Below, one piece after another: positions 18,707 to 37,310 of a stretch of DNA of 51,659 nt. The notes beneath the pieces were generated by a model that had not been told where the DNA came from, did not search any database, and saw only the letters and a program-made list of their open reading frames with translations. The stretch is taken from positions 1,769,592-1,821,250 of the forward strand of contig NZ_KE150421.1 of NCBI RefSeq assembly GCF_000411295.1. Reading direction: 5' to 3'. The stretch is from Paenisporosarcina sp. HGH0030 (GTDB lineage Bacteria; Bacillota; Bacilli; Bacillales_A; Planococcaceae). Made by a program: the position numbers and the translations under genes. Positions within the stretch are counted from its first letter, which is position 1, and each line of letters opens with the position of its first letter.

Positions 18707-18739
18707 TTTGTCCTCTCCTTTAACGTTCAAACTTTATCT

Positions 18740-18907: not shown

Positions 18908-19021
18908 TTTATATAATTTATTTGAATTCTCAATACAAGCACACCAAGTTTTCCCTTATGGAAATTACCTTATAATGTTTTAACCTATTTTTATCCTTTC
19001 AAATCATGTCTGTCGAAAAAA

Positions 19022-19056
19022 CAAGAAAAGCACCACAGACTAATCGTCCATGGTGC
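19022..19056 (-). terminator. Terminator of amino-acid permease
   Basis: On the minus strand GCACCA-GGAC pairs with GTC-TGGTGC with small internal mismatches, then TTTTCTTGT. It starts 20 bases after the permease stop. Confidence 0.75.
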
Positions 19057-19075
19057 CTTAAAATTCCACACTATT

Positions 19076-20461
19076 TTACTTCGAGTGATGGGCTCGGTTC
19101 TTTTTGTGGAACCCTTTTCCATAATAATAAACTGTTAAGAAAACTAGCCATAGTGGCCCAACAACAAGTGCGATTCTTGTATCCGGGGAATATGCCATTA
19201 CAACGATAACAAACACTAGGAAAGCAAGTGCAATATAAGATGTGATCGGGAAGAAAGGAACTTTGTATTTCAGTTTTGCTTTCTCCGCAGGTTTTAGTTT
19301 CTTACGGAATTGGATTTGAGAAACCAAAATAATCCCCCACGTCCAGATTGCACCGAAAGTTGCGATGCTCGTTACCCATGTAAATACTTTAGCCGGCACT
19401 ATATAATTCAAAATTACCCCAACCAGTAAAACTATTGCTGTTGCAATAACGGCTTTTCCTGGAACACCGTTTCTTGTCAGGTTTGCAAATTTCTTTGGAG
19501 CTTCACCGTGTTCTGCTAAGTTAAACAACATTCTTCCAGTACTGAAAATCCCACTGTTACAAGAAGATAGTGCTGCTGTCAAAATAACGAAGTTGATGAT
19601 ACCAGCTGCGCCAGGAATACCGATTTGTTCAAATGCCATTACAAACGGACTTCCTTTTGATCCGATTTCCTCCCATGGATAAATGGACATGATGACAAAT
19701 AGTGCCCCTACGTAGAAAATCAGAATGCGCCAGAAAACCGAATCAATCGCTTTTGCAAGCGATTTCTCTGGATTTTTGACTTCTCCAGCTGTTACACCGA
19801 TCATTTCAATACCAAGGAAAGCAAACATAACCATTTGCAGAGATAATAAAAGCCCTTCAATTCCGTTCGGGAAGAAGCCCCCGTGTTCCCATAAATTACT
19901 GATACCGGTTGCGATGCCCCCGTTACCAATACCAAATACAATCATGCCTGCCCCAATAAAGATCATCGCGATAATTGTGACGATTTTAATTAAAGCAAAC
20001 CAGAACTCCAATTCACCATACGCTTTGACTGCTAAAAAGTTAATCGAAGCCATTGCAACTAATGCTGCTAAAGCCCAAATCCAGCGCGGCGTGTCTGGAT
20101 ACCAGTATTCCATATAAATACCAACAGCCGTGATTTCGGCCATACAAGTTACGACCCATAAGAACCAATAATTCCATCCAGTTATGTATCCTGCCAACGG
20201 TCCTAAGTAATCACGTGCGTATTTACTAAACGAACCCGCTACTGGTTTGTGAATAGCCATTTCCCCAAGTGCTCTCATAATAAAGAACATCATCATCCCG
20301 GCGAATGCATATCCAAATAAAATACTCGGTCCTGCTAACTTTATTGCCGTTGCAGATCCAAGAAACAGTCCTACTCCGATGGCTGCTCCTAAAGACATCA
20401 GTGTTATATGCCTTTCTTCAAGCCCCCGTTGAAGACCTTTTGGTTGCGTCTTGCCCTTCAT
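19076..20461 (-). CDS. APC superfamily amino-acid permease
   Basis: A 461-residue, 12-span transporter of the amino-acid/polyamine/organocation family, AAT branch (GabP, ProY, AapA, AlaP relatives). The family signatures are GAAIGVGLFLGSATAIKLAGPS in the first span, MRALGEMA, the GxxGY-WNYWFLWV loop and FLGIEMIGVTAGEVKNPEKSLAKAI. Substrate cannot be set from sequence; a neutral amino acid such as alanine, proline or GABA by proton symport is a fair guess. The ATG follows AGGGGGATTTAAAT. It is a single gene bounded by terminators, with unusual palindromes upstream. Confidence 0.9.
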   Translation of the reverse strand: MKGKTQPKGLQRGLEERHITLMSLGAAIGVGLFLGSATAIKLAGPSILFGYAFAGMMMFFIMRALGEMAIHKPVAGSFSKYARDYLGPLAGYITGWNYWFLWVVTCMAEITAVGIYMEYWYPDTPRWIWALAALVAMASINFLAVKAYGELEFWFALIKIVTIIAMIFIGAGMIVFGIGNGGIATGISNLWEHGGFFPNGIEGLLLSLQMVMFAFLGIEMIGVTAGEVKNPEKSLAKAIDSVFWRILIFYVGALFVIMSIYPWEEIGSKGSPFVMAFEQIGIPGAAGIINFVILTAALSSCNSGIFSTGRMLFNLAEHGEAPKKFANLTRNGVPGKAVIATAIVLLVGVILNYIVPAKVFTWVTSIATFGAIWTWGIILVSQIQFRKKLKPAEKAKLKYKVPFFPITSYIALAFLVFVIVVMAYSPDTRIALVVGPLWLVFLTVYYYGKGFHKKNRAHHSK

Positions 20462-20647
20462 ATTTAAATCCCCCTTAGTTCTTCTGTTCTTCGTGATGAA
20501 AAATAGTTTTTCAATTTATAATACTCTTTTAAAATAAGTATTATATAAATATAAAACATTTATAATAGTTTGACTAGTTACATATGTGCTAGTAGCAAGC
20601 GACGATTTTACTATTCAAAATAGATGAATATGCCTCCCACACAATAT

Positions 20648-20667
20648 TTTGGAAATTATTTTCCAAA
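20648..20667. promoter_or_regulatory. 8-4-8 palindrome upstream of permease (1)
   Basis: TTTGGAAA-TTAT-TTTCCAAA is a perfect 8-base inverted repeat with a 4-base centre, about 190 bases upstream of the permease start. It could be an operator; it lacks a U tract. Confidence 0.5.
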
Positions 20668-20719
20668 CTTTACGGTCTTGAGGAAATGGTAGGAATACCC
20701 CAATATCACTCGGCTGAAC

Positions 20720-20739
20720 ATTATTTTAGCCAAAATAAT
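20720..20739. promoter_or_regulatory. 8-4-8 palindrome upstream of permease (2)
   Basis: ATTATTTT-AGCC-AAAATAAT is a second perfect 8-4-8 inverted repeat, 72 bases centre to centre from the first. The rest of the 20462-20859 gap is AT-rich and has no gene. Confidence 0.5.
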
Positions 20740-20807
20740 TTCTAATATTGAATTACTATTATAGTATTTCAATATTTCAAATAGAATGATTTTCCATAAA
20801 AAAGAAG

Positions 20808-20834
20808 GGCTTCTCCAAATGGGAGAAGTCCTTC
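20808..20834 (-). terminator. Terminator of glyA
   Basis: On the minus strand GAAGGaCTTCTCC pairs with GGAGAAGcCCTTC around 5-6 bases, followed by six T, 25 bases after the glyA stop. Confidence 0.92.
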
Positions 20835-20859
20835 AATACTTATGCAAAAATCAATTCTT

Positions 20860-22098
20860 CTATACCTGATAAAGAGGGAACTTAGAAGTAAGTTCTGCTA
20901 CTCGTTCAGCCGCTTCTTTATGAACTGCTTCGTCTTCGTGGTTTTTCAATAATTTCGACATGATTGACGCGATTTCTTTCATTTCTGGTTCTTTGAAACC
21001 ACGAGATGTTACAGCTGGTGTTCCAATTCGGATACCTGAAGTAACGAATGGGCTTTCTTTATCGAAAGGAATCGTATTTTTGTTCACTGTAATGCCAACC
21101 TCGTCCAATAACTTTTCTGCTACTTTACCAGTTAAGTTCAAAGACTTTAAGTTAACGAGCAGTAAGTGATTGTCCGTGCCGCCTGAAACAACATCAATGC
21201 CTTCATCAATTAAGCAGTTAGATAATGCTTTTGCATTTTTGACCACTTGTTGAATATACGTTTTGAATTCAGGTTGTTGCGCTTCTCCAAATGCTACTGC
21301 TTTCGAAGCGATTACATGCATCAATGGACCACCTTGAATCCCTGGGAAAATTGTTTTATCAATTTTCTTCGCAAATTCTTCGGTTGTAAGAATCAAGCCG
21401 CCACGTGGACCACGAAGTGTTTTGTGTGTCGTTGAGGTTACAAAGTGAGCATGAGGTACTGGATTTGGATGCTCTCCAGCTGCTACTAAGCCAGCAATGT
21501 GAGCCATATCAACCATTAAGTACGCTCCGACTTCATCTGCAATTTCACGGAATTTAGCAAAATCAAGTGTACGTGAATACGCGCTTGCTCCAGCAACAAT
21601 CATTTTTGGTTTATGTTGCAAGGCTTTTTCGCGCACATCCGAGTAATCGATTGTTTCAGTCATTTCGTCCACACCGTATTCAACGAATTTATATTGAATC
21701 CCGCTGAAGTTGACTGAAGAACCATGCGTCAAGTGACCGCCATGGGATAAATTCATTCCCAAAACCGTGTCGCCTTGCTCAAGTACAGTCATGTAAACCG
21801 CCATATTTGCTTGAGAGCCAGAATGTGGTTGCACGTTCGCATGTTCCGCTCCAAAAATTTCTTTCAAACGGTCACGCGCAATGTTTTCCACTACGTCTAC
21901 GTGTTCACAGCCACCATAATAACGTTTTCCTGGGTAGCCCTCTGCATATTTATTCGTTAATACAGATCCTTGAGCTTCCATTACTGCTTCTGAAACAAAG
22001 TTTTCAGATGCAATTAATTCGATATTCCCTTGTTGACGTGTTTTTTCAGCAGTCATTGCTTCAAAAATAGCTTTGTCTTGCTCAGCAATCTTCTTCAT
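20860..22098 (-). CDS. glyA: Serine hydroxymethyltransferase
   Basis: GlyA converts serine and tetrahydrofolate to glycine and methylene-tetrahydrofolate, using PLP. The PLP lysine lies in [15 protein letters not shown] (about residue 226), and [25 protein letters not shown] and [13 protein letters not shown] are the family blocks. Length is 412 residues. The ATG follows AAAGGGGATATGGACAC. It is the last gene after ywlG, 21 bases away, and ends in a strong terminator. Confidence 0.98.
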
Positions 22099-22119
22099 GT
22101 GTCCATATCCCCTTTATGT

Positions 22120-22671
22120 CTACTTGATTTTATATACTGCTCGCTCTCCGCCGATGAGTTTCGGACGGGTAGTAGCGAGTGTGACAACGGCTTCACCAAT
22201 TTGTTTTACAGATGTTCGGATCGGTACTGCTACAGGTTTAATGTGCATGCCGATCAAAGTTTGTCCAATATCGATGCCACCATGGGCTTTTACTTGCTCG
22301 ACCACAACCGGATCATTGAAATGTGTATAGGCGTAGGCAGACATGGAACCTCCCGCTTTTTGAACTGGAATGACATTTACCGGTTCTATACCATAGGTAT
22401 GTGCCGTTTGTCTTTCCATCGTTAGCGCTCGGTTAATATGTTCGCACCCTTGAAAAGCTAAATGAATCTCATGCTTGCTTGCAAATGCTTGCAACGGTTC
22501 GAATAAGCTTTCCGCCACTTCAAGCCCTCCTGCCGAGCCAATTCGTTTTCCAACAATCTCAGAGGTCGAGCAACCGATAACAATGATTTGCCCTGGTGTG
22601 AACGTGACTTGTGTCGCAAACTCACTGAGCAATTGTTCGAGTTGCGGCTGCCACATTGTGTGTGCATCCAT
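22120..22671 (-). CDS. ywlG: UPF0340/DUF436 family protein YwlG
   Basis: The 183-residue product belongs to the YwlG family of unknown function. Recognisable blocks are IIVIGCSTSEIVGKRIGSAGG near residue 30, LAFQGCEHINRALTMER near 73, PVQKAGGSMSAYAY near 103 and the C-terminal HIKPVAVPIRTSVKQIGEA. It is soluble. GAGGAG lies nine bases before the ATG. It sits between rpiB and glyA exactly as in B. subtilis and is probably co-transcribed. Confidence 0.92.
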   Translation of the reverse strand: MDAHTMWQPQLEQLLSEFATQVTFTPGQIIVIGCSTSEIVGKRIGSAGGLEVAESLFEPLQAFASKHEIHLAFQGCEHINRALTMERQTAHTYGIEPVNVIPVQKAGGSMSAYAYTHFNDPVVVEQVKAHGGIDIGQTLIGMHIKPVAVPIRTSVKQIGEAVVTLATTRPKLIGGERAVYKIK

Positions 22672-22685
22672 ATGACCAAACTCCT

Positions 22686-23126
22686 CTATTTGTTTTCGAG
22701 TTCTGAAAGTTTTGCGACGCGACGTTCGTGACGTCCACCTTCAAATTCGCTTTCCAACCATGTTTTTACAATTTCACGAGCCAGACCGCCACCAATTACG
22801 CGTTCGCCCATTGCTAATATATTGGAATCATTATGGCCACGTGTCGCTTTTGCGCTGAACACATCGTGAACCAATGCACAACGGATTCCTTTGATTTTAT
22901 TGGCTGCAATTGACATGCCAATACCTGTACCGCAAATTAAGATGCCTCGGTCAAATTTCCCAGTAGCAACCCCCTCTGAAACAGGTCCTGCATAGTCCGG
23001 ATAATCGACTGAATCGCTCGTTTGTGGACCGAAATCCTGATATGTGTGTCCCAGTTCGTCAAGTAAAGAAGTAATTTCTTTACGCAAAGTATTGCCCCCG
23101 TGATCGGAAGATATCGCGATATTCAT
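22686..23126 (-). CDS. rpiB: Ribose-5-phosphate isomerase B-type protein
   Basis: RpiB/LacA-family enzymes interconvert aldose and ketose phosphates; RpiB acts on ribose 5-phosphate in the pentose phosphate pathway. IAISSDHGGNTLRKEI at the N terminus and ILICGTGIGMSIAANKIKGIRCAL (anion hole and catalytic Cys) are typical, with GHNDSNILAMGERVIGGGLA near residue 98. Length is 146 residues. The ATG follows GAGGGACTGAA. B. subtilis YwlF occupies this place. Confidence 0.92.
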   Translation of the reverse strand: MNIAISSDHGGNTLRKEITSLLDELGHTYQDFGPQTSDSVDYPDYAGPVSEGVATGKFDRGILICGTGIGMSIAANKIKGIRCALVHDVFSAKATRGHNDSNILAMGERVIGGGLAREIVKTWLESEFEGGRHERRVAKLSELENK

Positions 23127-23219
23127 TTCAGTCCCTCATTTCTATTCATATTCGCTTTTATCTTACCATTTTTACTAAGAAAAGCGCAAAGTGCCTTTCT
23201 AGCCATTCTTTGATTTGGG

Positions 23220-23406
23220 TTATCTTGAATTCGTAAGTGGATATGGAGGAATCAGAGGTGGTTTTCTTTATTTCATTGGTGTATATCTCCATTTCGAAGG
23301 TGTTTATCTAGAAATGAAGCCTGCCGTCTCCTTAAGTTAACTTGCCAACGAGACTTGTTTGAGCGATAAATCTCTAGATTGATCGATAAACAAGCCAGTT
23401 TGAGCG
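23220..23406. repeat. Two opposed 21-bp-period repeat arrays
   Basis: The 450-base gap between ywlE and rpiB (23127-23578) has no gene. Units beginning TTATCT, ATATGG, TTTTCT, ATATCT and TTATCT start at 23220, 23241, 23262, 23283 and 23304, exactly 21 bases apart. From 23359 a second set, TTGAGCG, TTGATCG, TTGAGCG at 23359, 23379 and 23400, reads TTTATCGCTCAA on the other strand, so it is an opposed array. Confidence 0.75.
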
Positions 23407-23482
23407 TTAAATTTTTCACAAACGGAAAAGACAGCAACAACCTGTCTCACAAGTCTACTTGTTGTGAGATATCACTTCTTCA

Positions 23483-23529
23483 AAACAGGAGCGTAGCGAA
23501 AACAAAACTATTAAATCTTAAAACCTGAA
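23483..23529. repeat. 46-bp dispersed repeat, copy 1
   Basis: The minus strand reads TTCAGG..GATTTAAT..GTTTTCGCTACGCTCCTGTT and matches 42619-42664 on the plus strand with about four differences including one indel. Both copies are intergenic. Confidence 0.7.
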
Positions 23530-23542
23530 AATCTAGCCTTGC

Positions 23543-23579
23543 AAAAAAAAAAAAACAGCTCCCAATCATTAAGAGCCGT
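23543..23579 (-). terminator. Terminator of ywlE
   Basis: On the minus strand ACGGCTC pairs with GAGCTGT, followed by a run of 13 T. It begins at the ywlE stop. Confidence 0.75.
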
Positions 23580-24022
23580 CATTGTTCTTCGTTTAATTTT
23601 GAATGTAATTCATTCGTCAGTTGAGTGAGCTCCTGGAAAGTTTGACGGTACATGTACACGTCACCGCCAAATGGATCGGACACGTCGTGGGAACCGTATG
23701 GGCGTACGTATTCTTTCAAGGTGAATATTTTGTCTGCAGCAAAAGGAAAAGCTTGCATGATTAGTTGCTTATGTGCAGAGGTCATGGTCAATACAAGGTC
23801 TGCCCAGCGTACATCCTCTCCACTTACCTGACGGGAATAGTGTGTGAAATCAATGCCGGCTTCACGAATGACTTGTTTGGCATTTTCCGAAATGTCACCA
23901 TCGTCCATTGCATAGATTCCTGCTGAACGTACGTGCATTCCTTCTTTATTATGAGATTGGAATATTGCTTCCGCCATCGGACTGCGGCAAGTATTTCCTG
24001 TACATATGAAATAGATGTTCAC
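23579..24022 (-). CDS. ywlE: Protein arginine phosphatase YwlE
   Basis: A low-molecular-weight phosphatase fold of 147 residues. The P loop is CTGNTCRSP with nucleophile Cys7 and Arg13, and Thr11 marks the arginine-phosphate specificity known for B. subtilis YwlE, which counters McsB in protein quality control. The general-acid Asp is in HDVSDPFGGDVYMYR near residue 113. The start is GTG with GAGGGA upstream. It is 9 bases after mntP. Confidence 0.9.
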   Translation of the reverse strand: MNIYFICTGNTCRSPMAEAIFQSHNKEGMHVRSAGIYAMDDGDISENAKQVIREAGIDFTHYSRQVSGEDVRWADLVLTMTSAHKQLIMQAFPFAADKIFTLKEYVRPYGSHDVSDPFGGDVYMYRQTFQELTQLTNELHSKLNEEQ

Positions 24023-24031
24023 GTGAATCCC

Positions 24032-24523
24032 TCATTTATTTAGCAAAGTGAGCAATCCCATCAACATGAGACATACTCCTGATATGCGTGTTAGCAATGG
24101 TCCTTTGATCAGTTTGCTTTTTAGCGCAACATATGAAAACGCTAAAGCGAAAAAGCCGGCACTGAATAAGAAAAACCACTTTTGTAATTGAAGCATACCA
24201 AAAGAAAGGCTAACTGAAAAGGTATCAATGCTGACAACAATGGCAAGTAAAATGGGGGGAATGAGTGTGGATTTTGGTTTTTGTTGATATAAGCATAAAT
24301 GAACACCTGTAAGAAATAAAAGAATACTGGAGATGAAACGTCCACCTTCAACGATGAACGAGGTAACCCACTCTCCTGCTAGAAAACCGAGGAGCGGGAA
24401 AATCATATGTAAAATTCCTGTCCAAATGGCAAGGATGAGCGGGAAGCGGATTTTTGGTAATACACTATAAAGTGCGACGACATCCAGTGCGGTAAGTAGC
24501 CCCGCAAGCATTTCTGTAGGCAA
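24032..24523 (-). CDS. mntP: MntP-family manganese efflux protein, divergent
   Basis: The 163-residue protein has about six membrane spans with an internal repeat. The second half carries VVSIDTFSVSLSFG, matching the MntP acidic metal site. The first half has ALDVVALYSVLPKI, keeping the Asp but losing the small residues that normally follow (DAFAVS). Position between ywlE and ywlC matches B. subtilis ywlD/mntP. Manganese export is the likely role, but divergence of the first site leaves doubt. The start is TTG behind GGGGGGAG. Confidence 0.75.
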   Translation of the reverse strand: MPTEMLAGLLTALDVVALYSVLPKIRFPLILAIWTGILHMIFPLLGFLAGEWVTSFIVEGGRFISSILLFLTGVHLCLYQQKPKSTLIPPILLAIVVSIDTFSVSLSFGMLQLQKWFFLFSAGFFALAFSYVALKSKLIKGPLLTRISGVCLMLMGLLTLLNK

Positions 24524-24580
24524 TGAAAAAATCTCCCCCCTCTATTGCATTGCTTCTAGCATATGCAAAAAAGGAAGAGA

Positions 24581-25615
24581 TTAGGAGTGCCACCAGTTGC
24601 CATCGGCTGCTTTTTCCAGACGATTGAAAATGGCTGCACCAACACCTGTTTTTTCAGGTACCGTAACGAGTATCATATCAGCCGTTGTTTCATCGCACGA
24701 ACGTAAATGCGCGTATAAATGTTGTGCAGAAGTTTCGAGATTTTGTTGATTGCCGAGTGAAAAGAACCAGTCTGCCCCGCCTTGACTGAATTCATCTGTA
24801 GCGAGTAAAGCAACTTTTTGATGGTTCATATGTATTGTCTGAATGGCTTTCTTTACCGAGTTCACATCTGGTTGAATTAAATACACTGGCGCATCAGGTG
24901 CGTAATGTGCATATTTCATGCCAGGTGCCCGTGGTACGGATGCTTCATCCACTTTGGTTGTTTCTGGTTCAATTACTTTGCCAATAACTTCTTGTAGCAT
25001 GTTCGCTGTAACGCCGCCTGGACGCAGGATCACGGGTGGATCAACAGTAAAATCCACAACGGTTGATTCAAGTCCGATTCCGGTAGCCCCGCCATCTAAG
25101 ATGAGAGGAATTCGTCCGTTCAAATCTTTTTCCACATGCAGAGCAGTTGTTGGGCTTGGTTTGCCACTGCGGTTTGCACTTGGTGCGGCAACGGGGTGAT
25201 TAAGCATGGTCAGTAATTCCAGTGCAACTGGATGATCAGGCATGCGTAACCCTACTGTTGATAAGCCAGCGGTTACATTCGGAGCGAAAGTATTCGGTTT
25301 TGCGTCTAAAATCAGTGTTAATGGACCTGGCCAAAACGCTTTGATGCACGCATCTGCTTTTTCTGGAACAGAAGTGACGTATTTTACGATGTCGTGAGCT
25401 TTACCAACATGAACAATCAATGGGTTATCGGAAGGTCTACCTTTTGCCTCGAAGATTTTCGCGACTGCTTGTTCATTCGTAGCGATTGCTCCCAAACCGT
25501 AAACTGTTTCAGTCGGAAATGCGACAACTTCACCAGACATTAATTTTTCCACAGCTTGTGAATAAACTTCGATTTTATTCACACCGTTATCCACAATGAG
25601 TTTTTTCGTTTTCAT
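24581..25615 (-). CDS. ywlC: L-threonylcarbamoyladenylate synthase YwlC
   Basis: This Sua5/YrdC-family enzyme makes threonylcarbamoyl-AMP from threonine, bicarbonate and ATP for the t6A37 modification of tRNAs. The YrdC domain (about 15-205) has VVAFPTETVYGLGAIA, KGRPSDNPLIVHV and HPVAAPSANRSGKPSPT. A C-terminal Sua5 domain follows linker APGMKYAHYAPDAP near residue 230. At 344 residues it is the long Sua5 form. The ATG follows GAAAGGAGAAATATCGC. Confidence 0.95.
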   Translation of the reverse strand: MKTKKLIVDNGVNKIEVYSQAVEKLMSGEVVAFPTETVYGLGAIATNEQAVAKIFEAKGRPSDNPLIVHVGKAHDIVKYVTSVPEKADACIKAFWPGPLTLILDAKPNTFAPNVTAGLSTVGLRMPDHPVALELLTMLNHPVAAPSANRSGKPSPTTALHVEKDLNGRIPLILDGGATGIGLESTVVDFTVDPPVILRPGGVTANMLQEVIGKVIEPETTKVDEASVPRAPGMKYAHYAPDAPVYLIQPDVNSVKKAIQTIHMNHQKVALLATDEFSQGGADWFFSLGNQQNLETSAQHLYAHLRSCDETTADMILVTVPEKTGVGAAIFNRLEKAADGNWWHS

Positions 25616-25697
25616 GCGATATTTCTCCTTTCTATTAGGGTAATGTGTTAGTTATGCACATGTTGTTGATAACTAGGTGTGTAAATGTGTATAACTC

Positions 25698-26273
25698 TTA
25701 CCAAAACTTGCTTTTTATCCACTCCCATGTCCAAAACTTCACAGGCTCTTCTTCTATCACTTCTTCTTCTTCTTCTTGATAACATACCTTTGGAAATAAT
25801 GCGCACCACCAGTTGTCACCTTTGCCACTTCCGATTGTCACAACAAGTGATTGGTGAAAATCTTGTGCATAAAAGTAAGTGCCATCTGTTTTTGGTGGAA
25901 TCAATGCTTTTGCCAAGCTGATCTGGATTGCCTGTTTTGTGATAGCTTGTGCTTTTAACGTGATTTCCGTAGATAGCGCATTCAATTCTTTTTCAAGTTG
26001 TGCCGTTGTTTGAACGCTGGCAGCTGCTTTTTCAAGAAGTGGTTGAATTTCTTGCTGAATTAACGATTTAATTTGCTGATCTTCGCTAGTGTTGCTGTTT
26101 GCAACAATTCTTATTTGAATAGCGTCTGCTGGTACTGCCTCGGCTGCACCGCTAATAACTGGCAATAAAAATAGTAATGTTTGAATGAGTAAGAGCGACA
26201 GGATGAGTTCAATCCATGGAGACCGCTTCGTTTGCTGTTCTTCGTTTCTGAAAATCTCGTAATCTTGTATCAC
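25698..26273 (-). CDS. spoIIR: Stage II sporulation protein R
   Basis: SpoIIR is secreted from the forespore and triggers SpoIIGA to process pro-sigma-E in the mother cell. The product has an N-terminal membrane segment (LILSLLLIQTLLFLLPVI, about 23-40) and the family block IQIRIVANSNTSEDQQIKSLIQ near residue 53. A Cys-containing, Glu-rich tail (CYQEEEEEVIEEEPVKFW) ends the 191-residue protein. The start is GTG with GGGGGAAT upstream. It lies between prmC and ywlC as in B. subtilis. I looked for a sigma-F promoter and found no clean match. Confidence 0.92.
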   Translation of the reverse strand: MIQDYEIFRNEEQQTKRSPWIELILSLLLIQTLLFLLPVISGAAEAVPADAIQIRIVANSNTSEDQQIKSLIQQEIQPLLEKAAASVQTTAQLEKELNALSTEITLKAQAITKQAIQISLAKALIPPKTDGTYFYAQDFHQSLVVTIGSGKGDNWWCALFPKVCYQEEEEEVIEEEPVKFWTWEWIKSKFW

Positions 26274-26317
26274 TGTTCATTCCCCCTTGACATCATTGTG
26301 GACAAGGTGTTGATAGT

Positions 26318-27184
26318 TTATTCACGAATCTCACAAAAAATCATTCTTTCTTTTCCGTTTATATCTTTTACTATATCAACTTGAGCAGTTGGGAACGATT
26401 TTTGGAAGAAAGATTGGACAGCGGGACCTTGCGCATAGCCGATTTCCAGACCAATCAGTGCAGGTCGATTCAAGATTGCAGGGAGTTCTACAGCTAACCT
26501 TTTATATAACTGAAGTCCCTCTTCATCAGCAAAAAGAGCACTATGAGGTTCATAGTTTAATACAGTATCTGATAGAGTCGTAGCTTCTTCGTGTGCAATA
26601 TAGGGAGGGTTCGATAATACGATATCCCACTTTTCATTTGCAATAGGAGCGGTTAAATCACCAAGCTTGAATGTGATGTCTGCATCAAGTTCAGCTGCGT
26701 TTGCTTGTGCCACTTTCAGTGCCTGTGGGGATAAATCGGTTGCTGTGACTTGTAAAGCAGGAACTTCAGCCTTCATTGTAATGGCGATTGCCCCACTGCC
26801 TGTCCCAATATCCGCAAGATTTAACTCCGTTTTATTGTTGAACAAATGCTTTATACGGGCAGTCGTTTCCACAATAAGTTCTTCCGTCTCAGGGCGAGGA
26901 ATAAGAACATGTTCATTGACAGTGAACGTTCGACCATAAAATTCTTCCGACCCGATAATGTATTGAACAGGCTTTCCGTCTTTGTGCTGTTCAATGAGTG
27001 ACCAATACTGATTGAATTGGCTGTCTGAAATTTCTTCACGCATATCCATGAGTAACTGGACGTGTGTTTTATTTAAAACATGTTGTAGCAACATACGCGC
27101 GACAGGTTCTTCTCGACCGTTTTCTATTAAAAAAGACGAGGCTCGCGCGAGAGCCTCGTATACATATTTACACATTGGTTTCAT
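26318..27184 (-). CDS. prmC: Release factor glutamine methyltransferase PrmC
   Basis: PrmC methylates the Gln of the GGQ motif in release factors RF1 and RF2. The SAM-binding [15 protein letters not shown] (near residue 124) and catalytic [11 protein letters not shown] (near 193) are clear. Length is 288 residues from ATG 27184; ATG 27175 is an alternative that fits the family N terminus better. The start overlaps the prfA stop by 17 bases. Codons about 9 to 18 form a perfect terminator hairpin with a T tract, so expression is probably reduced relative to prfA. Confidence 0.95.
27129..27159 (-). terminator. Intrinsic terminator inside prmC 5' coding region
   Basis: On the minus strand ACGAGGCTC pairs perfectly with GAGCCTCGT across TCGCGC, then C and six T. 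It starts 9 bases after the prfA stop and lies wholly inside the first codons of prmC. Confidence 0.85.
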
Positions 27185-28247
27185 TCATGCGCTCAAGTCT
27201 TTCGGATTGGTCCGTCATTATGAGAACATTCACGATTTCATCGAGTTTACCTTCCATGATTTGATCCAATTTTTGAATGGTCAATCCAACGCGGTGGTCA
27301 GTCACGCGATTTTGTGGATAGTTGTATGTGCGAATTCGTTCTGAACGGTCTCCTGAACCTACTGCAGATTTACGGACAGCGTCATACTCAGCTTGTGCTT
27401 CTTGACGGAATTTATCTGCAACACGTGCGCGAAGAACCGTCATGGCTTTAGCTTTGTTTTTAATTTGTGATTTTTCATCTTGGCAAGTTACTACCGTGCC
27501 AGTCGGAATATGTGTTAGACGAACAGCTGACATTGTTGTATTAACGGACTGACCGCCGGCACCTGAAGATGCATACGTATCTGTACGAATATCATTTTCA
27601 TGAATTTCTACATCTACCTCTTCCACTTCTGGAAGACATGCAACGGTTGCTGTCGACGTATGAATGCGTCCACCAGACTCCGTTTCAGGAACACGTTGAA
27701 CACGGTGAGCACCGTTTTCATATTTCATTTTCGAGTACGCTCCGTTACCGTTAATCATGAAGATCACTTCTTTATAGCCACCAATTCCAGTAGGAGAAGC
27801 ATCCATAATTTCAATTTTCCAGCCTTGCGTGTCTGCGTAGCGGCTGTACATGCGGAATAAGTTCCCTGCAAATAGAGCAGCTTCGTCTCCACCGGCAGCT
27901 CCACGAATTTCCATGATTACGTTCTTTTCATCATTCGGGTCTTTCGGAATCAATAACAGTTTCAAACGTTCTTCCAGCTCTTCAATTTGAGCCGCCAAGT
28001 CGTTCATTTCTTCTTTCACCATTTCACGCATATCTGCATCGAGCTTATCGTCAAGCATGGCTCTCGCATCAGCATGCTGCTCTTTTACTTGTTTGTATTC
28101 ACGGTATGCATTGACCGTATCTTGTAAGTCCGACTGTTCTTTCGAAAGCGTACGTAGTTTATTCATATCATTAACAATCTCAGGGTCACTGAGCAATTCA
28201 TTTAAGCGGTCATATCGGTCTTCTACCGATTGTAAGCGATCAAACAT
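27168..28247 (-). CDS. prfA: Peptide chain release factor 1
   Basis: RF1 reads UAA and UAG and releases the peptide. The catalytic GGQ lies in [12 protein letters not shown] (near residue 230), the target of PrmC encoded next. The PxT codon-recognition region is represented by [21 protein letters not shown] upstream of [14 protein letters not shown]. Length is 359 residues. The ATG follows GATGAGGTGAAAGT. Its stop falls inside the prmC start region. Confidence 0.97.
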
Positions 28248-28339
28248 ACTTTCACCTCATCCGTTCATGTGATTAACAGTATAATTATATAGAAAAAGAG
28301 GCGAAATTGCCACTACAGCTTAGCTGGATATAACGTAAA

Positions 28340-28367
28340 GGAATCTGCTCCCTTTCCGCAGACGAAC
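28340..28367. repeat. Fragment of the 172-bp intergenic element
   Basis: GGAATCTGCTCCCTTTCCGC and the following GAC-GAAC match 47954-47981 at 27 of 28 bases. Only this end of the element is present in the prfA-tdk gap. Confidence 0.7.
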
Positions 28368-28451
28368 CGGCAAAGAGTGCTGTTGAAATTGAAAATCAAA
28401 CGAAAGAGTACATTTTCGTCTAGCAAAAGAACAGTATTGTTTTACAAAGCC

Positions 28452-28483
28452 AAAAAGAAAAAGAGCAGCAATCGCTACTCTTT
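28452..28483 (-). terminator. Terminator overlapping the tdk stop
   Basis: On the minus strand AAAGAGTAGC pairs with GCTGCTCTTT (one U-G pair) around GATT, followed by TTCTTTTT. The upstream arm includes the last tdk codons. Confidence 0.85.
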
Positions 28484-29089
28484 CTCGTACACTAATGAAG
28501 TTTGATGAGTAACGCCTGCTGGTACTTCGTGATGGTGACGGCAACGAGGTTCGTAAGCTTCTGTTGCTCCAATCAAAATAATTGGATCCTCATAGCCAGC
28601 TGGCTCTCCGTTAATAAGTCGTTGCGTTCGACTTGCAGGTGAACCGCACACTTGGCAAACAGCCTGTAATTTCGTTACTTGTTCAGCACCTGCCATTAGT
28701 TTTGGCATTGGTCCAAATGGTTCCCCTCGGAAATCTTGATCCAGACCAGCAACAATAACGCGGAATCCATGATTCGCTAGACGTTCCACGACATCCACAA
28801 TTCCTTCGTCAAAGAATTGGGCTTCATCGATTCCAATGACATCATATTCATCCGAAATATACGCCCATATATCTTTTGCGCGCTCAACTGGCATCGCAAT
28901 CACTTTCGTGCCATTATGGCTTACAACTTCTTCTTCACTGTAACGATTATCTATACGTGGTTTGAACACGGCAATTTTTTGTTTCGCAAATTGCACGCGT
29001 CGTACACGACGAATTAATTCTTCTGATTTCCCAGAAAACATACTTCCGCAAATGACTTCTACCCAGCCAGTTTGTGACATCACGTACAT
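28475..29089 (-). CDS. tdk: Thymidine kinase
   Basis: Tdk phosphorylates thymidine with ATP in pyrimidine salvage. The type II enzyme is recognised by P loop [16 protein letters not shown] (about 13-28), Walker [11 protein letters not shown], lasso [12 protein letters not shown] and the zinc cysteines CQVCG with C-RHHH near the C terminus. Length is 204 residues from ATG 29089 with GGAGTGACTTCC upstream; the six-codon extension is not supported. Confidence 0.96.
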
Positions 29090-29423
29090 GGAAGTCACTC
29101 CTTTCAAAACTCTCTATTCCCTATCATACAGAAAATTATGTTGCATTTCCCGTCTTTTCTTTCATAAAGTTATGTGATATAGAGGAAAATATTTATTCTA
29201 GAATATCAGTCATCATTCTATCAATTGTCTTCTCAAATAGAAACACCACTAAACATCCGTGTGTGGCGCAATTCAAAGGTTTTAATAACAGGGCTATTCG
29301 CTTTGCTCGGCAGCCTTTTGCTTAACTTTTAATACATACAGTAAGAATTACACTCCACTTAAATAAAAAAAGTATCAGTCACCTCAAATTTGCTAATAAT
29401 AACAAAATAGGAGGTGTGATACT
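29090..29423. other. Divergent gap between tdk and DUF1540 gene
   Basis: No gene seen. A perfect 12-base palindrome TATTCTAGAATA is at 29194-29205. CATACAGT at 29335-29342 matches the sigma-E -10 consensus on the plus strand and could serve the DUF1540 gene, but no -35 supports it. Confidence 0.4.
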
Positions 29424-29579
29424 ATGGCTCAAGATGTTCTGTGTGAAGTGAATAACTGTAAGTATTGGGACTCCGGAAACAAATGTAAAGCGGATTCTAT
29501 TTATGTAGTCAGTCATAAGGGCAAAAAGGCATCCAATAGTGAAGAAACGGATTGCAAAACATTTGTAACAAAAGCTTAA
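29424..29579 (+). CDS. DUF1540 Cys-containing small protein
   Basis: A 51-residue plus-strand protein, MAQDVLCEVNNCKYWDSGNK at the start, with four cysteines in the pattern C-x5-C-x8-C-x22-C typical of DUF1540, which probably binds metal or forms disulfides. The ATG follows GGAGGTGTGATACT, an ideal site, and a terminator follows. A CATACAGT element upstream hints at mother-cell sigma-E expression, which is weak inference. The function is unknown. Confidence 0.85.
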   Translation: MAQDVLCEVNNCKYWDSGNKCKADSIYVVSHKGKKASNSEETDCKTFVTKA

Positions 29580-29587
29580 ACTTTTGA

Positions 29588-29620
29588 GGGTAACCATCAT
29601 TTTGGTTGCCCTTTATTATT
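29588..29620 (+). terminator. Terminator of DUF1540 gene
   Basis: GGGTAACCA pairs with TGGTTGCCC with one G-U type mismatch around TCATTTT, followed by TTTATTATTT, eight bases after the stop. Confidence 0.85.
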
Positions 29621-29753
29621 TATAGTAATGATGATAATTATCTTTTTCATTCAAGTTTATGAATTCATTTTATTTTTTCTATCCGCTTTGAAAAAGGAAT
29701 GGAGTAAAAATATTTTATACCAGCTGTGTTATGCTGAGGTACCCCAAGTGGAG

Positions 29754-29999
29754 TTAAGGATGAAAGTGTATGTTTTTTTCAGTTTTAAATAGCAGGCAAT
29801 GTGCATTTCCCACTTTTTCTTCTAAATAGTCAAGTGAATAATTACCCAATGGATCTGATAAATCGCCGATTGCCCGGGATAGATTATCAATCACAAGTCT
29901 TGTATCAAATCGTCTTAGCTCTTTCCTTACATTCATCTCATCCATAATTTCATGAGCAAGATGTTGGATTCGACGTAAGCGCATTTCTTTTGTTTGCAT
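29754..29999 (-). CDS. Small hypothetical protein, 81 residues
   Basis: An 81-residue soluble protein rich in Arg and Leu in its first half (MQTKEMRLRRIQHLAHEIMD) with the later segment LSDPLGNYSLDYLEEKVG. GGAGGATGAGTAGATC precedes the ATG. It is convergent with the DUF1540 gene and downstream of a transporter gene on the same strand. I do not recognise the family; a helical DNA- or protein-binding role would be a guess. Confidence 0.65.
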   Translation of the reverse strand: MQTKEMRLRRIQHLAHEIMDEMNVRKELRRFDTRLVIDNLSRAIGDLSDPLGNYSLDYLEEKVGNAHCLLFKTEKNIHFHP

Positions 30000-30087
30000 G
30001 ATCTACTCATCCTCCTATATCCCAACTTATATTGTTTAAATATATGGCTAACAATAAGGATTCATGAGACGTTTTTTTATGTGAAGC

Positions 30088-31089
30088 TTACAATAAAATA
30101 AAAATCAATAATAGAGCAAATACAATCTGGAATAGACCGATTCCCCCGGCATAAGCTGATAACTTCCAGCCGTGCAGTGTAAGGTCTTTTATTTTCACAC
30201 TCATTCCAATCCCCGCCAAAGCGATGATTTCCAAATAGTTTCCGAACCCCTTGATTGAATGTGTAACTGTTGCAGGGAAATATAAAATACTATTCAAACA
30301 ACATAGTATGAAAAAGCCCCCGACATACCATGGAACGATTGTACGCCATTGAAATGACTCCTGCGTTTTTGGCTGTTCTCCATTATTAAGTTTGATCTGT
30401 TTCAAAACAAAAACAACAGCTACCAGAAAGATAATTCGACTGATTTTAAAGACGGCTGCTTGATCCTTTACCGCTTCACCAACAATGCTACCACTAGCTA
30501 CTACTTGTCCAACAGATTGTAATGTTCCACCTATTAATGCAGACGACTGCAATACATCGTTTTGAAAAATCGCACTTGTTATCACTGGTAACAAGATCAT
30601 CAAAACCGTACCCAACAGATTGACAATCGTAATAGAAACGGCCACATCAGATTCTTTAGCCTGGATAGCTGGTGCAGTCGACGCAATCGCAGATGAACCA
30701 CAGACCGCATTTCCACTTGCCATCAGCAAACCAAAATCTTCACCGAATCGCAGTTTCTTTCCTAACCAAATAACAAACAAAATCGTTCCTGCCATTTGAA
30801 TGAGAATATAAGCAAGACCTAACATTCCAATTTCAAATAATGAATTGAATGTTAAGGTTGCTCCTAATAAAACAATGGAAAAGTACAGTAAAGTACTTCC
30901 CGAAAACTTTTCCCCCGGCTTTAATATGGAATAAGAACCTATTTTTAAATTACCAATTAATATACCAATTAGAATTGCAAATAAACCACTCCCTAAATTA
31001 GGGAAAAATCTTCCGAGTGCTATACCTATCATTGCAATTGCAATACAAACCAGTAGTCCAGGTAAAATGTATACAACTTTTCTCGTCAT
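30088..31089 (-). CDS. YeiH/UPF0324 family putative sulfate exporter
   Basis: A 333-residue membrane protein with about ten spans. Family marks are LGRFFPNLGSGLFAILIGILIGN near residue 26, KPGEKFSGSTLLYFSIVLLGATL near 57, LLMASGNAVCGSSAIASTAPAI near 121 and GTLQSVGQVVASGSIVGE near 187, which carries the conserved polar core. Relatives are annotated as sulfate or anion exporters; the substrate is unproven. No LysR regulator sits beside it. The ATG follows GTGAGGTAGAGAA, and an extended -10 TGTTAAAAT lies at 31136-31144. Confidence 0.85.
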   Translation of the reverse strand: MTRKVVYILPGLLVCIAIAMIGIALGRFFPNLGSGLFAILIGILIGNLKIGSYSILKPGEKFSGSTLLYFSIVLLGATLTFNSLFEIGMLGLAYILIQMAGTILFVIWLGKKLRFGEDFGLLMASGNAVCGSSAIASTAPAIQAKESDVAVSITIVNLLGTVLMILLPVITSAIFQNDVLQSSALIGGTLQSVGQVVASGSIVGEAVKDQAAVFKISRIIFLVAVVFVLKQIKLNNGEQPKTQESFQWRTIVPWYVGGFFILCCLNSILYFPATVTHSIKGFGNYLEIIALAGIGMSVKIKDLTLHGWKLSAYAGGIGLFQIVFALLLIFILL

Positions 31090-31380
31090 TTCTCTACCTC
31101 ACTAAATAGTTTTCTTTCGCTCACGCCCAAAGATTATTTTAACATATATTACACTTTATCTATTTTGGGAACCGTCTAGAATAATACCAACAACAGGAAG
31201 ATTTCATTTATCAACTAAGGAGTGCTTAGTTGAAGAACCGACTGCCTTTACAGGGTAGCTTTTCTATTTGTGATGAGATTAAGAGTTCACTTCCATTATT
31301 TATTCAATTCAATCAAATTTCTCTTTTTACAACTAAACTCCCCAGAATTCAACTAACTGACCGCTCACCTTAAATAAAAT
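31090..31380. other. Gap upstream of YeiH gene
   Basis: No gene seen. A perfect 9-base hairpin, TCAACTAAG with CTTAGTTGA around GAGTG, is at 31211-31233, about 120 bases upstream of the transporter start and without a U tract. An extended -10 (TGTTAAAAT, minus strand) is at 31136-31144. Confidence 0.4.
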
Positions 31381-31422
31381 AAAAAATACCCGCATAGAGT
31401 CGAAACTCTAAGCGGGTATTTT
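31381..31422 (-). terminator. Terminator of rpmE
   Basis: On the minus strand AATACCCGCtTAGAGT pairs with ACTCTAtGCGGGTATT around TTCG, then TTTT. It lies 5 bases after the rpmE stop. Confidence 0.92.
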
Positions 31423-31426
31423 GTGA

Positions 31427-31642
31427 TTATTCGTTGATTTCTTCTTTAAGACCGTATTTTTTGTTGAAACGATCAACACGGCCATCCGCTGCTGCGAATT
31501 TCTGACGGCCAGTATAGAATGGATGACATTCTGAGCAAAACTCAACTTTGATGTCTTCTTTTACTGATCCTGTTTCGAACGAGTTACCACATGAACATGT
31601 AACTGTAGCTGTTTTGTAATCGGGATGAATTCCTGGTTTCAT
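31427..31642 (-). CDS. rpmE: Ribosomal protein bL31, zinc type
   Basis: Protein L31 of the large ribosomal subunit. The 71-residue product has four zinc ligands, Cys16, Cys18, Cys36 and Cys39 (CSCGN and [10 protein letters not shown]), so it is the zinc-binding C+ form rather than the zinc-independent paralogue. The ATG at 31642 follows AGAGGAGATTTAAG; the nine-codon upstream extension lies in the leader. It stands alone behind a strong promoter and ends in a terminator. Confidence 0.97.
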
Positions 31643-31761
31643 CTTAAATCTCCTCTCGCCCTGAACCATCTGGAACAGAGTGGGTTATTTAACTGTCACC
31701 TTACACGACCCGTTCAGTTCAGCCGTATATGTCACAGAGTATGGTAAATCTACCGAACTAA

Positions 31762-31790
31762 ATTATAGCAAAAAGGACTTACGAAATCAA
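31762..31790 (-). promoter_or_regulatory. Sigma-A promoter of rpmE
   Basis: On the minus strand TTGATT (31785-31790) and TATAAT (31762-31767) are 17 bases apart, with TGC giving an extended -10. The leader to rpmE is about 115 bases and could hold an autoregulatory L31 leader RNA, which I could not confirm by eye. Confidence 0.8.
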
Positions 31791-31823
31791 CCCTTTTGTT
31801 TAAATAAGGAACTACAATTTATC

Positions 31824-33107
31824 TTATAGCAGTCCCTTGCCACCACGATGAGCTTTCATATCGTCATTGAGCTGGTTGAAGAAATCTTCGTTTGATTTCG
31901 ATTGACGCAATTTTTTTAGGAAGCGTTCGCCGAAATCGTGCGAATCCGAGAATGTTTTGCGAATTGCCCATAGTTTTTCGAGTTGATTTGAAGGAATAAG
32001 TAGTTCTTCTTTTCGTGTTCCCGAGCGACGGATGTCGAGTGCCGGGAAAATACGACGCTCTGCCAAATTGCGGTCTAGGTGAAGCTCCAAGTTTCCTGTT
32101 CCTTTAAATTCTTCGTAAATCACTTCATCCATACGTGATCCTGTATCAACTAGAGCTGTTGCAAGAATTGTTAAGCTTCCGCCTTCTTCAATGTTACGTG
32201 CTGCACCGAAGAAACGTTTTGGACGATGGAATGCAGCAGGGTCAATACCACCAGATAATGTACGACCACTTGGTGGAATCACTAAGTTGTACGCACGTGC
32301 CAGTCGTGTAATGGAGTCCATCAGGATGATGACGTCACGTTTGTGTTCAACTAAACGCATCGCACGATCAAGAACCAATTCCGCAACTTTTACGTGATTT
32401 TCTGGTACTTCGTCAAACGTTGAGCTTACAACATCGGCATTCACAGAACGCTCGATATCCGTAACTTCCTCTGGACGTTCGTCAATTAGCAAGACAATCA
32501 GTTCTGCATCCGGATAGTTTGTCGTAATCGAGTTTGCCACTTCTTTTAGTAACATCGTTTTACCCGCTTTTGGCGGTGCCACGATTAAGCCACGTTGACC
32601 GAATCCGACAGGTGCTACTAAATCCATGATGCGGGTTGATAGTTTGTTTGACTCTGTTTCAAGCTTGATGTGACGATCTGGATATAACGGTGTGAGTGCC
32701 GGGAAATGCACGCGTTCTTTTGCAGAATCCGGGTCTTCACCATTTACTAATTCTACGTGCAATAGGCCGTAGTATCGTTCATTTTCTTTTGGTGGGCGTA
32801 CTTTTCCTGTTACTTTATCTCCGTTACGTAAGTCGAAACGGCGAATTTGAGATGCGGAAATATAGATATCTTCTGAACTTGGAGAATAGTTGATGGGGCG
32901 CAAGAAACCGAACCCTTCAGATTGAATAATTTCCAGGACACCTTCCATGAAGAAGTAGCCTTCTTGTTCTGCGCGTGTTTTTAATATCGCAAAAATAAGT
33001 TCTTTTTTCGTTAGTTTGCTGTAGTACGAGATTTTGAACTGGCGTGCAAGTGCATACAGTTCTTTTAACGTCATACTTTCTAGTTCAGCAATCTTTAAGG
33101 TTGTCAT
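31824..33107 (-). CDS. rho: Transcription termination factor Rho
   Basis: Rho is the hexameric RNA helicase that terminates transcription. The N-terminal helix bundle (LKELYALARQFKISYYSKLTKKELIFAIL), the cold-shock RNA-binding fold GFGFLRPINYSPSSEDIYIS near 65-84 and Walker A APPKAGKT at 177-184 are present, with the R-loop IPPSGRTLSGG later. Length is 427 residues. The ATG has only a weak GTGGTG site upstream, which fits a gene often controlled at its leader. Confidence 0.97.
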   Translation of the reverse strand: MTTLKIAELESMTLKELYALARQFKISYYSKLTKKELIFAILKTRAEQEGYFFMEGVLEIIQSEGFGFLRPINYSPSSEDIYISASQIRRFDLRNGDKVTGKVRPPKENERYYGLLHVELVNGEDPDSAKERVHFPALTPLYPDRHIKLETESNKLSTRIMDLVAPVGFGQRGLIVAPPKAGKTMLLKEVANSITTNYPDAELIVLLIDERPEEVTDIERSVNADVVSSTFDEVPENHVKVAELVLDRAMRLVEHKRDVIILMDSITRLARAYNLVIPPSGRTLSGGIDPAAFHRPKRFFGAARNIEEGGSLTILATALVDTGSRMDEVIYEEFKGTGNLELHLDRNLAERRIFPALDIRRSGTRKEELLIPSNQLEKLWAIRKTFSDSHDFGERFLKKLRQSKSNEDFFNQLNDDMKAHRGGKGLL

Positions 33108-33196
33108 AAAATGGCACCACTCTTTTACATATTTTGTTGTGTCGATTCAAGTTGAAGGTAGGATTGGTTCTGCAATGAATTGATTTTAGTAGAAGA

Positions 33197-33221
33197 TGCC
33201 CGGCCAAGTTATGGCCAGGCA
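33197..33221 (-). other. Strong hairpin between glpX and rho
   Basis: On the minus strand TGCCtGGCC pairs with GGCCgGGCA around ATAACTT, 14 bases after the glpX stop. The following TCTTCTAC is not a U tract, so it is either a weak terminator or a rho leader structure. Confidence 0.5.
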
Positions 33222-33234
33222 CATATTTTTGAAG

Positions 33235-34203
33235 TTAGTCTTCCATCATAAGATGAGGTTTTTTCTTCAAGCTGTGACGCCCTTCTACGAAACGGACTGT
33301 GCCTGATTTCGCACGCATAACTAATGAATGAGACTCTGCATATGATCCCTTGAATTGTACACCACGCAGAAGTTCTCCATCCGTTACACCCGTTGCCGCA
33401 AAGATTGCGTCGTCACCTTTTACAAGGTCTTCCATACGGAATACACGGTTTACATCAAGTCCCATACGAATACAACGTTGTAATTCTTGTTCGTTGGTAG
33501 GAACTAATTTACCTTGTATTTCGCCACCTAGACATTTCAAGCCAACTGCAGCAATAACGCCCTCTGGCGCGCCACCCAGTCCAAATAAAATATCTACGCC
33601 TGTTTCATCGAATGCTGTGTTGATTGCACCTGCAACGTCGCCATCATTGATCAATTTAATTCGAGCACCTGATGCACGAATCTCATCAATAATTTTTTGG
33701 TGACGTGGGCGGTTTAAAATTGTTGCCACAACGTCTTCGATGTCTTTGTTTTTAGCACGGGCAACCGCACGTAAGTTATCTGTTACAGAAGCGTTGATGT
33801 CCACTTGGCCTCTTGCTTCAGGTCCTACTGCCAATTTGTCCATATACATATCCGGTGCATTCAGCAGGTTGCCTCTGTCTGCGATTGCAAGAACTGCAAG
33901 CGCATTCCATCCGCCTGAAGCCACGATATTTGTTCCCTCGAGAGGGTCAACTGCGATATCCACTTCCGGACCGCCAATGCCAAGACCTAGTTCTTCACCG
34001 ATATATAGCATCGGTGCTTCGTCCATTTCACCTTCGCCTATTACGACGACCCCTTGCATCGGGATAGAGTTAAAAACGTTTCGCATAGCTGTAGTCGCTG
34101 CGTCATCCGCTTCATTTTTCAAACCTCGGCCCATCCAACGTGCCGAAGCGATTGCTGCTGCTTCTGTTACACGCACTAACTCCATTGATAAACTGCGTTC
34201 CAT
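33235..34203 (-). CDS. glpX: Class II fructose-1,6-bisphosphatase GlpX
   Basis: GlpX hydrolyses fructose 1,6-bisphosphate in gluconeogenesis with Mn. Motifs are [15 protein letters not shown] near residue 55, the metal and phosphate site VDPLEGTN near 83 and [14 protein letters not shown] near 185. Length is 322 residues from ATG 34203, which follows GGGAGGAACACACAAA; the upstream in-frame extension is not conserved. It lies between murAB and rho, as in B. subtilis, and the local cluster with fbaA suggests sugar-phosphate metabolism. Confidence 0.95.
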
Positions 34204-34289
34204 TTTGTGTGTTCCTCCCGTTATCCGGTCATTTATTTGCGTCATTCTTCCACCTGTCATTGTACCATACGTGACAAGTGGTCAGATTT

Positions 34290-35585
34290 TTATTTTTCGT
34301 TGTCTTCTGTGCTCGAATGTTCGTGTTCATCTTCGATAGTTTCGCGGCGAATATCTGCACCGAGCCCATGCAATTTATCAATTAACGAGCTGTAGCCTCG
34401 TTCGATATGATAAATATCGCGAATTTCAGTTTCTCCTTCGGCAATCAATCCAGCCAATACCAAGGCTGCTCCTGCACGCAAATCTGATGCACGAACTGAA
34501 GCGGATTCCAATTTCGTCGGACCTGAAATAATCGCTGTACGCCCTTCTACACGTGCACTGGCATTCATACGTTTCAACTCATCGATATGTTTGAAACGGG
34601 CTGAATAAATGGTGTCTGTAATGACCGATGAACCTTTGGCCTGGGTCATTAAAAGAGAGAACGGTTGCTGTAAATCCGTTGGGAAACCAGGATACACCAG
34701 TGTTTTCACATCCACTGCCTGCAAGTTCTCTGATTTCGGAATGAAGATACTTTCTTCGCCTTCTTCGATCTTAACGCCCATTTCGCGCAGTTTTGCAGTC
34801 AGCGCTTCAACATGGAATGGGATGACATTGTCAATTGTAACACCGTCACCAGCCACTGCAGCCATTATCATGAATGTTCCTGCTTCAATTCGATCGGGGA
34901 TAATCGTGTGGTTCGTCCCATGTAGTTCATCAACTCCATCGATTCGAATGACGTTCGTTCCTGCACCCTTGATTTTCGCTCCCATGTTTGTTAACAAAGT
35001 CGCTACATCAATGATTTCAGGTTCTTTCGCGGCATTTTCAATGGTCGTTTGCCCTTTAGCCATTACGGCAGCCAGCATGATGTTGATGGTGGCACCAACA
35101 CTGACAACGTCTAAATAAATTTTAGCTCCACGCAATTCATCCGCACGCAAATAAATGGCACCATGTTCGTTCGTCACTTTGGCACCAAGCGCCTCAAAGC
35201 CTTTGATGTGTTGATCGATCGGACGAGGTCCTAAGAAACAGCCTCCTGGCAAGCCAATGACCGCTTTTTTAAAGCGACCTAGCATGGCACCCATCAAATA
35301 ATAGGATGCTCGAAGTTTTTTAACGTTGCCGTTTGGCAAAGGCATGCCTTGCATTTTAGTAGGATCAATGTTCATAGTGCCGTCGTCGAAAGATACATCC
35401 CCACCGATTTCCTCTAGCAACTCTTTCAGTGTCCAAGCATCCGAGATTTCCGGTAATCCTTCAATCGTGACAGGAGAATTGGCTAAAATGGATGCCGGGA
35501 TTAAAGCAACTGCGCTGTTTTTGGCACCGCTCACTTTAATTGTTCCTTGTAAACGTTTTTGCCCATTAATTTTATACACTTCCAT
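34290..35585 (-). CDS. murAB: UDP-GlcNAc 1-carboxyvinyltransferase MurAB
   Basis: Second MurA enzyme of the window, same reaction as murAA. Active-site [15 protein letters not shown] keeps the Cys, and [14 protein letters not shown] and [14 protein letters not shown] are family blocks. It has an acidic tail ([18 protein letters not shown]) not seen in murAA. Length is 431 residues from ATG 35585 with TAGGTGAATTAC upstream; a GTG three codons earlier is less well spaced. Low-G+C Firmicutes usually carry both copies; position with the transaldolase and rho marks murAB. Confidence 0.94.
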
Positions 35586-37304: not shown

Positions 37305-37310
37305 CTTATG

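Follow-up and report, generated by a model that had tools for sequence, protein, structure and literature searches.

Intrinsic (Rho-independent) terminators combine a GC-rich perfect stem, a short loop and a T tract directly after it, and the element described here, in prmC, has the same parts; unlike the usual intrinsic terminator, it is made up entirely of codons from the 5' part of the downstream gene, an arrangement found in many families. In the ABC-importer operons of Ruminiclostridium, as presented in the available text of PMC9045158, a stem is likewise found between a gene of high need and a gene of lower need, but those terminators are intergenic and their transcript levels were measured, whereas the prmC element is built from codons and is known from sequence. 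The partial terminator of Bacillus subtilis secA-prfB (available sections of PMC8073009) is likewise a read-through terminator next to a release-factor gene, but it precedes the release-factor gene itself, while the prmC element precedes the gene of a modifying enzyme. The ORF-internal 3' ends of Escherichia coli (excerpt of PMC7815308) resemble it in lying inside ORFs. A literature search returned no paper on a terminator inside prmC, and 3' ends at the site may be present among published data. Stoichiometry-setting terminators within operons are already known from the spaces between genes (PMC9045158, in its available text), and what would be new is a coding-embedded one conserved over much of a class.

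In the available sections of PMC8073009, prfA, prmC and ywkF of B. subtilis are described as co-transcribed, and a partial terminator is named for secA/prfB and none for prfA/prmC; termination after prfA in that species, if there is any, would therefore be partial. Removal of prmC had no measurable effect on ywkF mRNA, which argues against a strong terminator in B. subtilis, since its removal together with prmC should raise ywkF; the deletion is not stated in those sections to span the codons of the element, and no named B. subtilis sequence is among the loci examined here. According to the same sections, overexpression of PrmC is costly and natural release-factor levels lie near the fitness optimum in B. 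subtilis, the cost of excess PrmC there being traced largely to sigma-B activation, a link that may not hold in other species. RNA polymerase outruns ribosomes in B. subtilis-like bacteria, as described in an excerpt of PMC13323073.

The window, by which we mean the whole stretch of DNA that was analysed (51,659 nt of contig NZ_KE150421.1 of Paenisporosarcina sp. HGH0030), carries prfA followed by prmC on the minus strand. The features of this neighborhood are, in the direction of transcription:

28457..28486, minus strand, terminator-like site where the gene before prfA ends (consensus and strict scans)
28284..28313, minus strand, candidate sigma-70-like promoter of prfA, GTGGCA-18-TATAAT, 10/12 (consensus scan; weak)
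27168..28247, minus strand, prfA (release factor 1), ORF of 359 aa, stop TAA at 27170-27168
26318..27184, minus strand, prmC (release factor glutamine methyltransferase), TIGR03534 at 279.6 bits, cut-off 199.1
27151..27159, minus strand, 5' arm of the putative terminator hairpin, ACGAGGCTC (sequence reading, consensus scan, fold)
27145..27150, minus strand, hairpin loop TCGCGC, 6 nt (sequence reading, consensus scan, fold)
27136..27144, minus strand, 3' arm of the putative terminator hairpin, GAGCCTCGT (sequence reading, consensus scan, fold)
27129..27135, minus strand, C + T6 tract, with C at 27135 and TTTTTT at 27134-27129 (sequence reading, consensus scan)
25698..26273, minus strand, spoIIR-like gene after prmC, ORF of 191 aa (ORF list)

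From its ORF sequence we take the first gene of the pair to be prfA; the gene upstream of it (28475-29107) is presumably a thymidine kinase gene, judging by its sequence, and the name spoIIR is our assumption from position and sequence. The longest prmC ORF starts at 27184, and the likely start is the ATG at 27175-27173, which lies within the end of prfA and matches the aligned start in many relatives. The two genes are functionally linked and co-directional, with overlapping ends. The prfA promoter candidate is a weak one, because the scan gave fewer such sites (37) than shuffled sequence did (46.4), so that promoter-like sites as a class are no commoner than expected. The prfA unit could be bounded by this candidate promoter in front and by the putative prmC terminator hairpin behind.

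The minus strand reads ACGAGGCTC-TCGCGC-GAGCCTCGT from 27159 to 27136, giving nine perfect pairs, of which six are G-C, around a loop of six. The C + T6 tract that follows is part of the Ser, Phe and Leu codons TCT TTT TTA, and the entire hairpin and tract are prmC coding sequence, with the prmC frame open throughout. Counted from the ATG at 27184 the element occupies codons 9-19, and from the ATG at 27175 codons 6-16; the stem starts at +26 and +17 from these, respectively. A 61-nt segment folds at -16.3 kcal/mol (z -3.1), and 3 of 200 shuffles folded as well. A GC-rich stem, a short loop and a T-rich tract directly after it, the anatomy of an intrinsic terminator, are thus present here. An earlier note on this DNA, made from the letters and their open reading frames, had described a 9-base perfect stem, a C and six T at 27129-27159 inside prmC, and the sequence bears this out; its placement within prmC codons stands as well, but the stem begins 8 bases after the prfA stop TAA and not 9.

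The window was scanned on both strands with a strict definition (stem of at least 6 bp with at least 4 G-C pairs, loop of 3-8, at least six T in the next nine bases), by which mismatched stems and weak tracts are missed. This gave 15 hits at 12 places, three of which score on both strands, and the prmC site is the only hit in the window that lies wholly inside a same-strand ORF of at least 100 aa. Among the others, the hit at +44494 falls within an ORF but on its opposite strand, and hits at three places run into an ORF at its start or end. Terminator-like hairpins readable on both strands lie at 1515-1545, 37878-37909 and 42802-42829, and could serve convergent genes. With a looser consensus scan, 17500-37400 yielded 29 terminator-like sites, compared with 17.1 (sd 5.4) in shuffles. 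When the prmC codons of the window were recoded synonymously 1000 times, with codon usage drawn mainly from the locus itself, a strict site of any kind arose in 30 recodings and one of equal score in none. Rfam gave no match up to E 10 for 26800-27600. A covariance model, searched against its own genome, returned the prmC site as the top match, with the next two at E 0.46 and 0.56, and among 81 class genomes it matched in 52 at E <= 0.01; these matches are not independent evidence, because coding sequence is also part of the model.

Relatives of prmC turned up in 9/9 genomes of the genus, 200/200 of the family sample, 160/160 of the order sample, 156/161 of the class sample and 112/119 of the phylum sample, and those with names put the window close to Paenisporosarcina. 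The junction was compared in 254 Bacilli genomes, namely those with a prfA end located just upstream of prmC (one locus, L249, was excluded as no prfA was found upstream), and a stem with a T tract in the first prmC codons occurs in 202 of them, from 27 of 39 families; since the genomes are related, such fractions are no count of independent events. The remaining genomes comprise 2 with a hairpin in the gap between the genes, 3 with a stem and a weak tract, and 47 with neither. While the terminators of PMC9045158 are intergenic in its available text, the position here is inside prmC in the window and in these 202 of 254, and in the gap only in the two loci L305 and L306. From the same family, 178 of 211 genomes were examined, picked from the more window-like rows, and the 154/178 carriers found there are a figure that leans high owing to this sampling; from the other families of the class sample, 77 of 148 genomes were taken. 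The element is kept in all nine genomes of the genus, so that loss of the stem in close relatives, which the earlier note had named as evidence against its reading, was not found. Elsewhere within the family the carriers number 0/4 in g4, 7/20 in g3, 1/3 in g7 and 19/24 in g8, and among named species Sporosarcina luteola (L028) and S. aquimarina (L030) have lost the element. Solibacillus faecavium, two Psychrobacillus and two Planococcus are among the named genomes that carry it. The T tract of some lineages is weaker (TTCTTATTT and similar), or is gone together with the stem. At the prmC start of L298 and L302, long GC-rich hairpins with a weak tract or one mismatch can be seen by eye, and the figure of 202/254 may be low because the strict scan missed them.

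Outside Bacilli, the strict scan found none at 20 junctions, taken from 108 non-Bacilli prmC matches. At about this position, two loci of family f83, also outside Bacilli (L277 and L280), have a different, long stem, AACCGCC/GGCGGTT, with TTTCTTTTT or TTTCTTTCT after it, which is possibly an independent or rebuilt coding-embedded terminator. Among carriers the distance from prfA stop to stem ranges from 7 to 71 nt, 10 nt being the commonest (123 of 197 element-bearing genomes), and a geometry tied to the prfA stop was rejected as a general rule on account of this range. The prfA stops of the 254 Bacilli are TAA in 193, TGA in 53 and TAG in 8. In other words, prfA, the gene of RF1, is closed by UGA, a stop for RF2 alone, in 53 genomes and by the RF1-only UAG in 8; autoregulation of RF1 through a UAG stop of prfA was rejected on the latter count.

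Two loci of family f30, L305 and L306, have a terminator-like hairpin in the likely prfA-prmC gap (for example, GGGCGGC-GTG-GCCGCCC followed by TTTTTT) and neither a strict nor a looser site at the prmC start, while a third f30 genome has the element inside prmC. The prmC reading frame is open across both hairpins, and their assignment to the gap depends on taking a TTG in L305 and an ATG in L306, each preceded by a Shine-Dalgarno-like sequence, as the likely prmC starts. These are apparent relocations of the embedded element, and what is conserved seems, from the sequences compared, to be a terminator placed after prfA ends and before the main part of prmC, in most cases spelled out by codons.

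The codons that make up the element depart strongly from the usage of the loci themselves. The Ala after Glu is GCC in 182 of 212 loci, with 28 expected from the loci's own usage, and the next Ala is GCT in 203 of 234 (57 expected). Both Ser codons are TCT (193/209 and 189/210, 42 expected each), Phe is TTT in 165 of 166 loci (109 expected), and Leu is TTA in 193 of 235 (75 expected), or TTA or TTG in 219 of 235. In a synonymous null over 241 loci, including a few copies of one genome, 206 had the site, as against a mean of 2.2% of recodings; 5 of 246 loci had been dropped for low alignment score, among them L250, which has the site. In 87 long loci, the site was present in 79 element windows and in 0 of 49,207 other in-frame windows of prfA and prmC. 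The proposal of the earlier note that synonymous codon choice builds the stem therefore agrees with both the codon bias and the recodings of the window, none of which scored as high.

Pairing was followed over rows of up to three per genus, 9 of 101 being dropped, all of them without the element, and six without the full site being kept. In the seven core pairs of the resulting 92 sequences, 98.9% of cells are paired, a share that falls to 22-70% when the 3' partner is shifted by 1-3 columns. Thirteen cells of the core pairs are changed on both sides, compared with a mean of 1.5 in shuffles that do not keep relatedness, and none of 500 shuffles reached as high. With all 101 rows counted, every core pair forms in 91-98 of them, and the three lower pairs form in 16, 63 and 50. 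A ten-pair count gave 43 cells against 13.7 when shuffled (0/500); 30 of these 43 come from the three lower pairs, on which the figure thus depends and which are absent from many rows. Within the genus, the window species and its closest relatives have GAGGCTC/GAGCCTC and the others GAGGCCC/GGGCTTC, a silent compensating change in which the E-A-L and R-A-S residues are unchanged (for example, L001 compared with L007; L011 has W for R). That an alignment of relatives would show the stem kept by compensating synonymous changes, as the earlier note had suggested, is what was found. Different stems are found in other families (L232, L239, L262 and L303): L232 has CGGGATG...GCATCCCG, L262 has CGAGAAGCTTT...AAAGCTTCTCG, and L303, of family f42, carries the unrelated stem TCGAAGAGGC/GCCTCTTTGA with a T tract in the first prmC codons. 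The peptide also varies with the element, A-S-[SR] being present in 197 of 206 loci with it and in 2 of 35 without, and part of the PrmC sequence therefore appears to follow the element. Judged from these alignments, selection on RNA or DNA maintains the silent codon choice and, to some extent, the residues A-S-S-F.

We consider it probable that the element is an intrinsic terminator of the prfA transcript, placed inside the first prmC codons, and that PrmC is made only from read-through. The T tract is held as strictly as the arms, though no stem needs it, which favours a terminator. RNA polymerase would finish prfA and transcribe about 40 more bases, a fraction of complexes would stop on reaching the T tract, around codons 16-19 of prmC, and only read-through RNA would carry the whole of prmC. 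RF1 would then be made in excess of PrmC, which would be needed in small, well-set amounts. With polymerase ahead of the ribosome, a hairpin made of codons could take effect before translation reaches and unfolds it; it counts against termination that a ribosome translating prmC and following polymerase closely could open the hairpin. We infer termination itself, its efficiency and the RF1:PrmC stoichiometry as its benefit, and part of the messages probably end after prfA, keeping the methylase scarce. The earlier note went further in proposing that most transcripts would stop after prfA, with leaky expression of PrmC; its direction coincides with the explanation favoured here, which is itself drawn from sequence, but the word "most" goes beyond what sequence can tell.

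That protein sequence and codon usage build the stem by accident, with relatives merely inheriting it and no selection on RNA, might be argued from the recurrence of E-A-L and A-S-S in PrmC and from the relatedness of the genomes, which keeps the counts from being independent. It is effectively refuted by the codon bias, the synonymous null and the core-pair covariation, and we give it practically no probability: codon choices are far from the loci's own usage, 206 of 241 loci have the site when 2.2% of recodings do, different families have different stems, and A-S-[SR] is nearly confined to loci with the element (197/206 with, 2/35 without). Covariation shows pairing and not termination, and stable hairpins located past a start codon can alter translation, so the hairpin might instead be an element of mRNA stability, processing or translation at the prmC start; this is distinctly unlikely, as the tract outside the core stem is held just as tightly (Phe TTT in 165/166, Leu TTA or TTG in 219/235), and in L305 and L306 it is the gap that holds a terminator-like hairpin. 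A related suggestion of the earlier note, that the stem blocks the prmC start, fits poorly with a stem lying downstream of the start region (+17 or +26), and the T tract would have no role in such a block.

A conditional attenuator, in which the hairpin is held open by a ribosome starting prmC, or by one stalled at the prfA stop for want of RF1 or of its methylation, so that PrmC rises as release-factor activity falls, would suit a likely prmC start that overlaps the prfA end 17 nt before the stem in the window, and also the prevalence of the 10-nt spacing in 123 of 197 carriers. We regard it as unlikely, given that the stop-to-stem distance extends from 7 to 71 nt among carriers, that prfA does not favour an RF1-only stop (TAA in 193, TGA in 53 and TAG in 8 of 254) and that one predicted fold of the 81-nt junction, for the window only, has no helix competing with the stem. 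Polymerases that outrun ribosomes in B. subtilis-like bacteria, as the excerpt of PMC13323073 has it, also count against it. Insulation of downstream genes from vegetative prfA transcription, above all of the sporulation gene spoIIR, is highly unlikely. A spoIIR-like gene does follow prmC in the window, and tblastn gave a downstream hit in 70 of 79 element-bearing long loci, but the other 9, including two named Planococcus, have no downstream spoIIR hit, spoIIR is present in 6 of 8 long loci without the element, and a terminator placed behind prmC would give insulation and leave prmC whole.

The terminator reading can be extended to the families as a whole, an extension whose chances we put at about even: the 5' end of prmC would be under dual selection in most Bacilli families examined, with the A-S-S-F peptide following the terminator and not the reverse, an uncoupled polymerase would permit this arrangement, and the element would be lost, or found in the gap, where the need differs. 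If the element does terminate, it would explain a strong and otherwise odd codon bias, along with a peptide motif, in PrmC, and a control element could be removed when prmC is recoded for Bacillus-like hosts. It would also make it testable whether terminators can exist within genes where transcription is uncoupled. It would be a simple means of fixing RF1:PrmC ratios, and a regulatory element would lie hidden in codons between a release factor and its modifying enzyme across much of a class.
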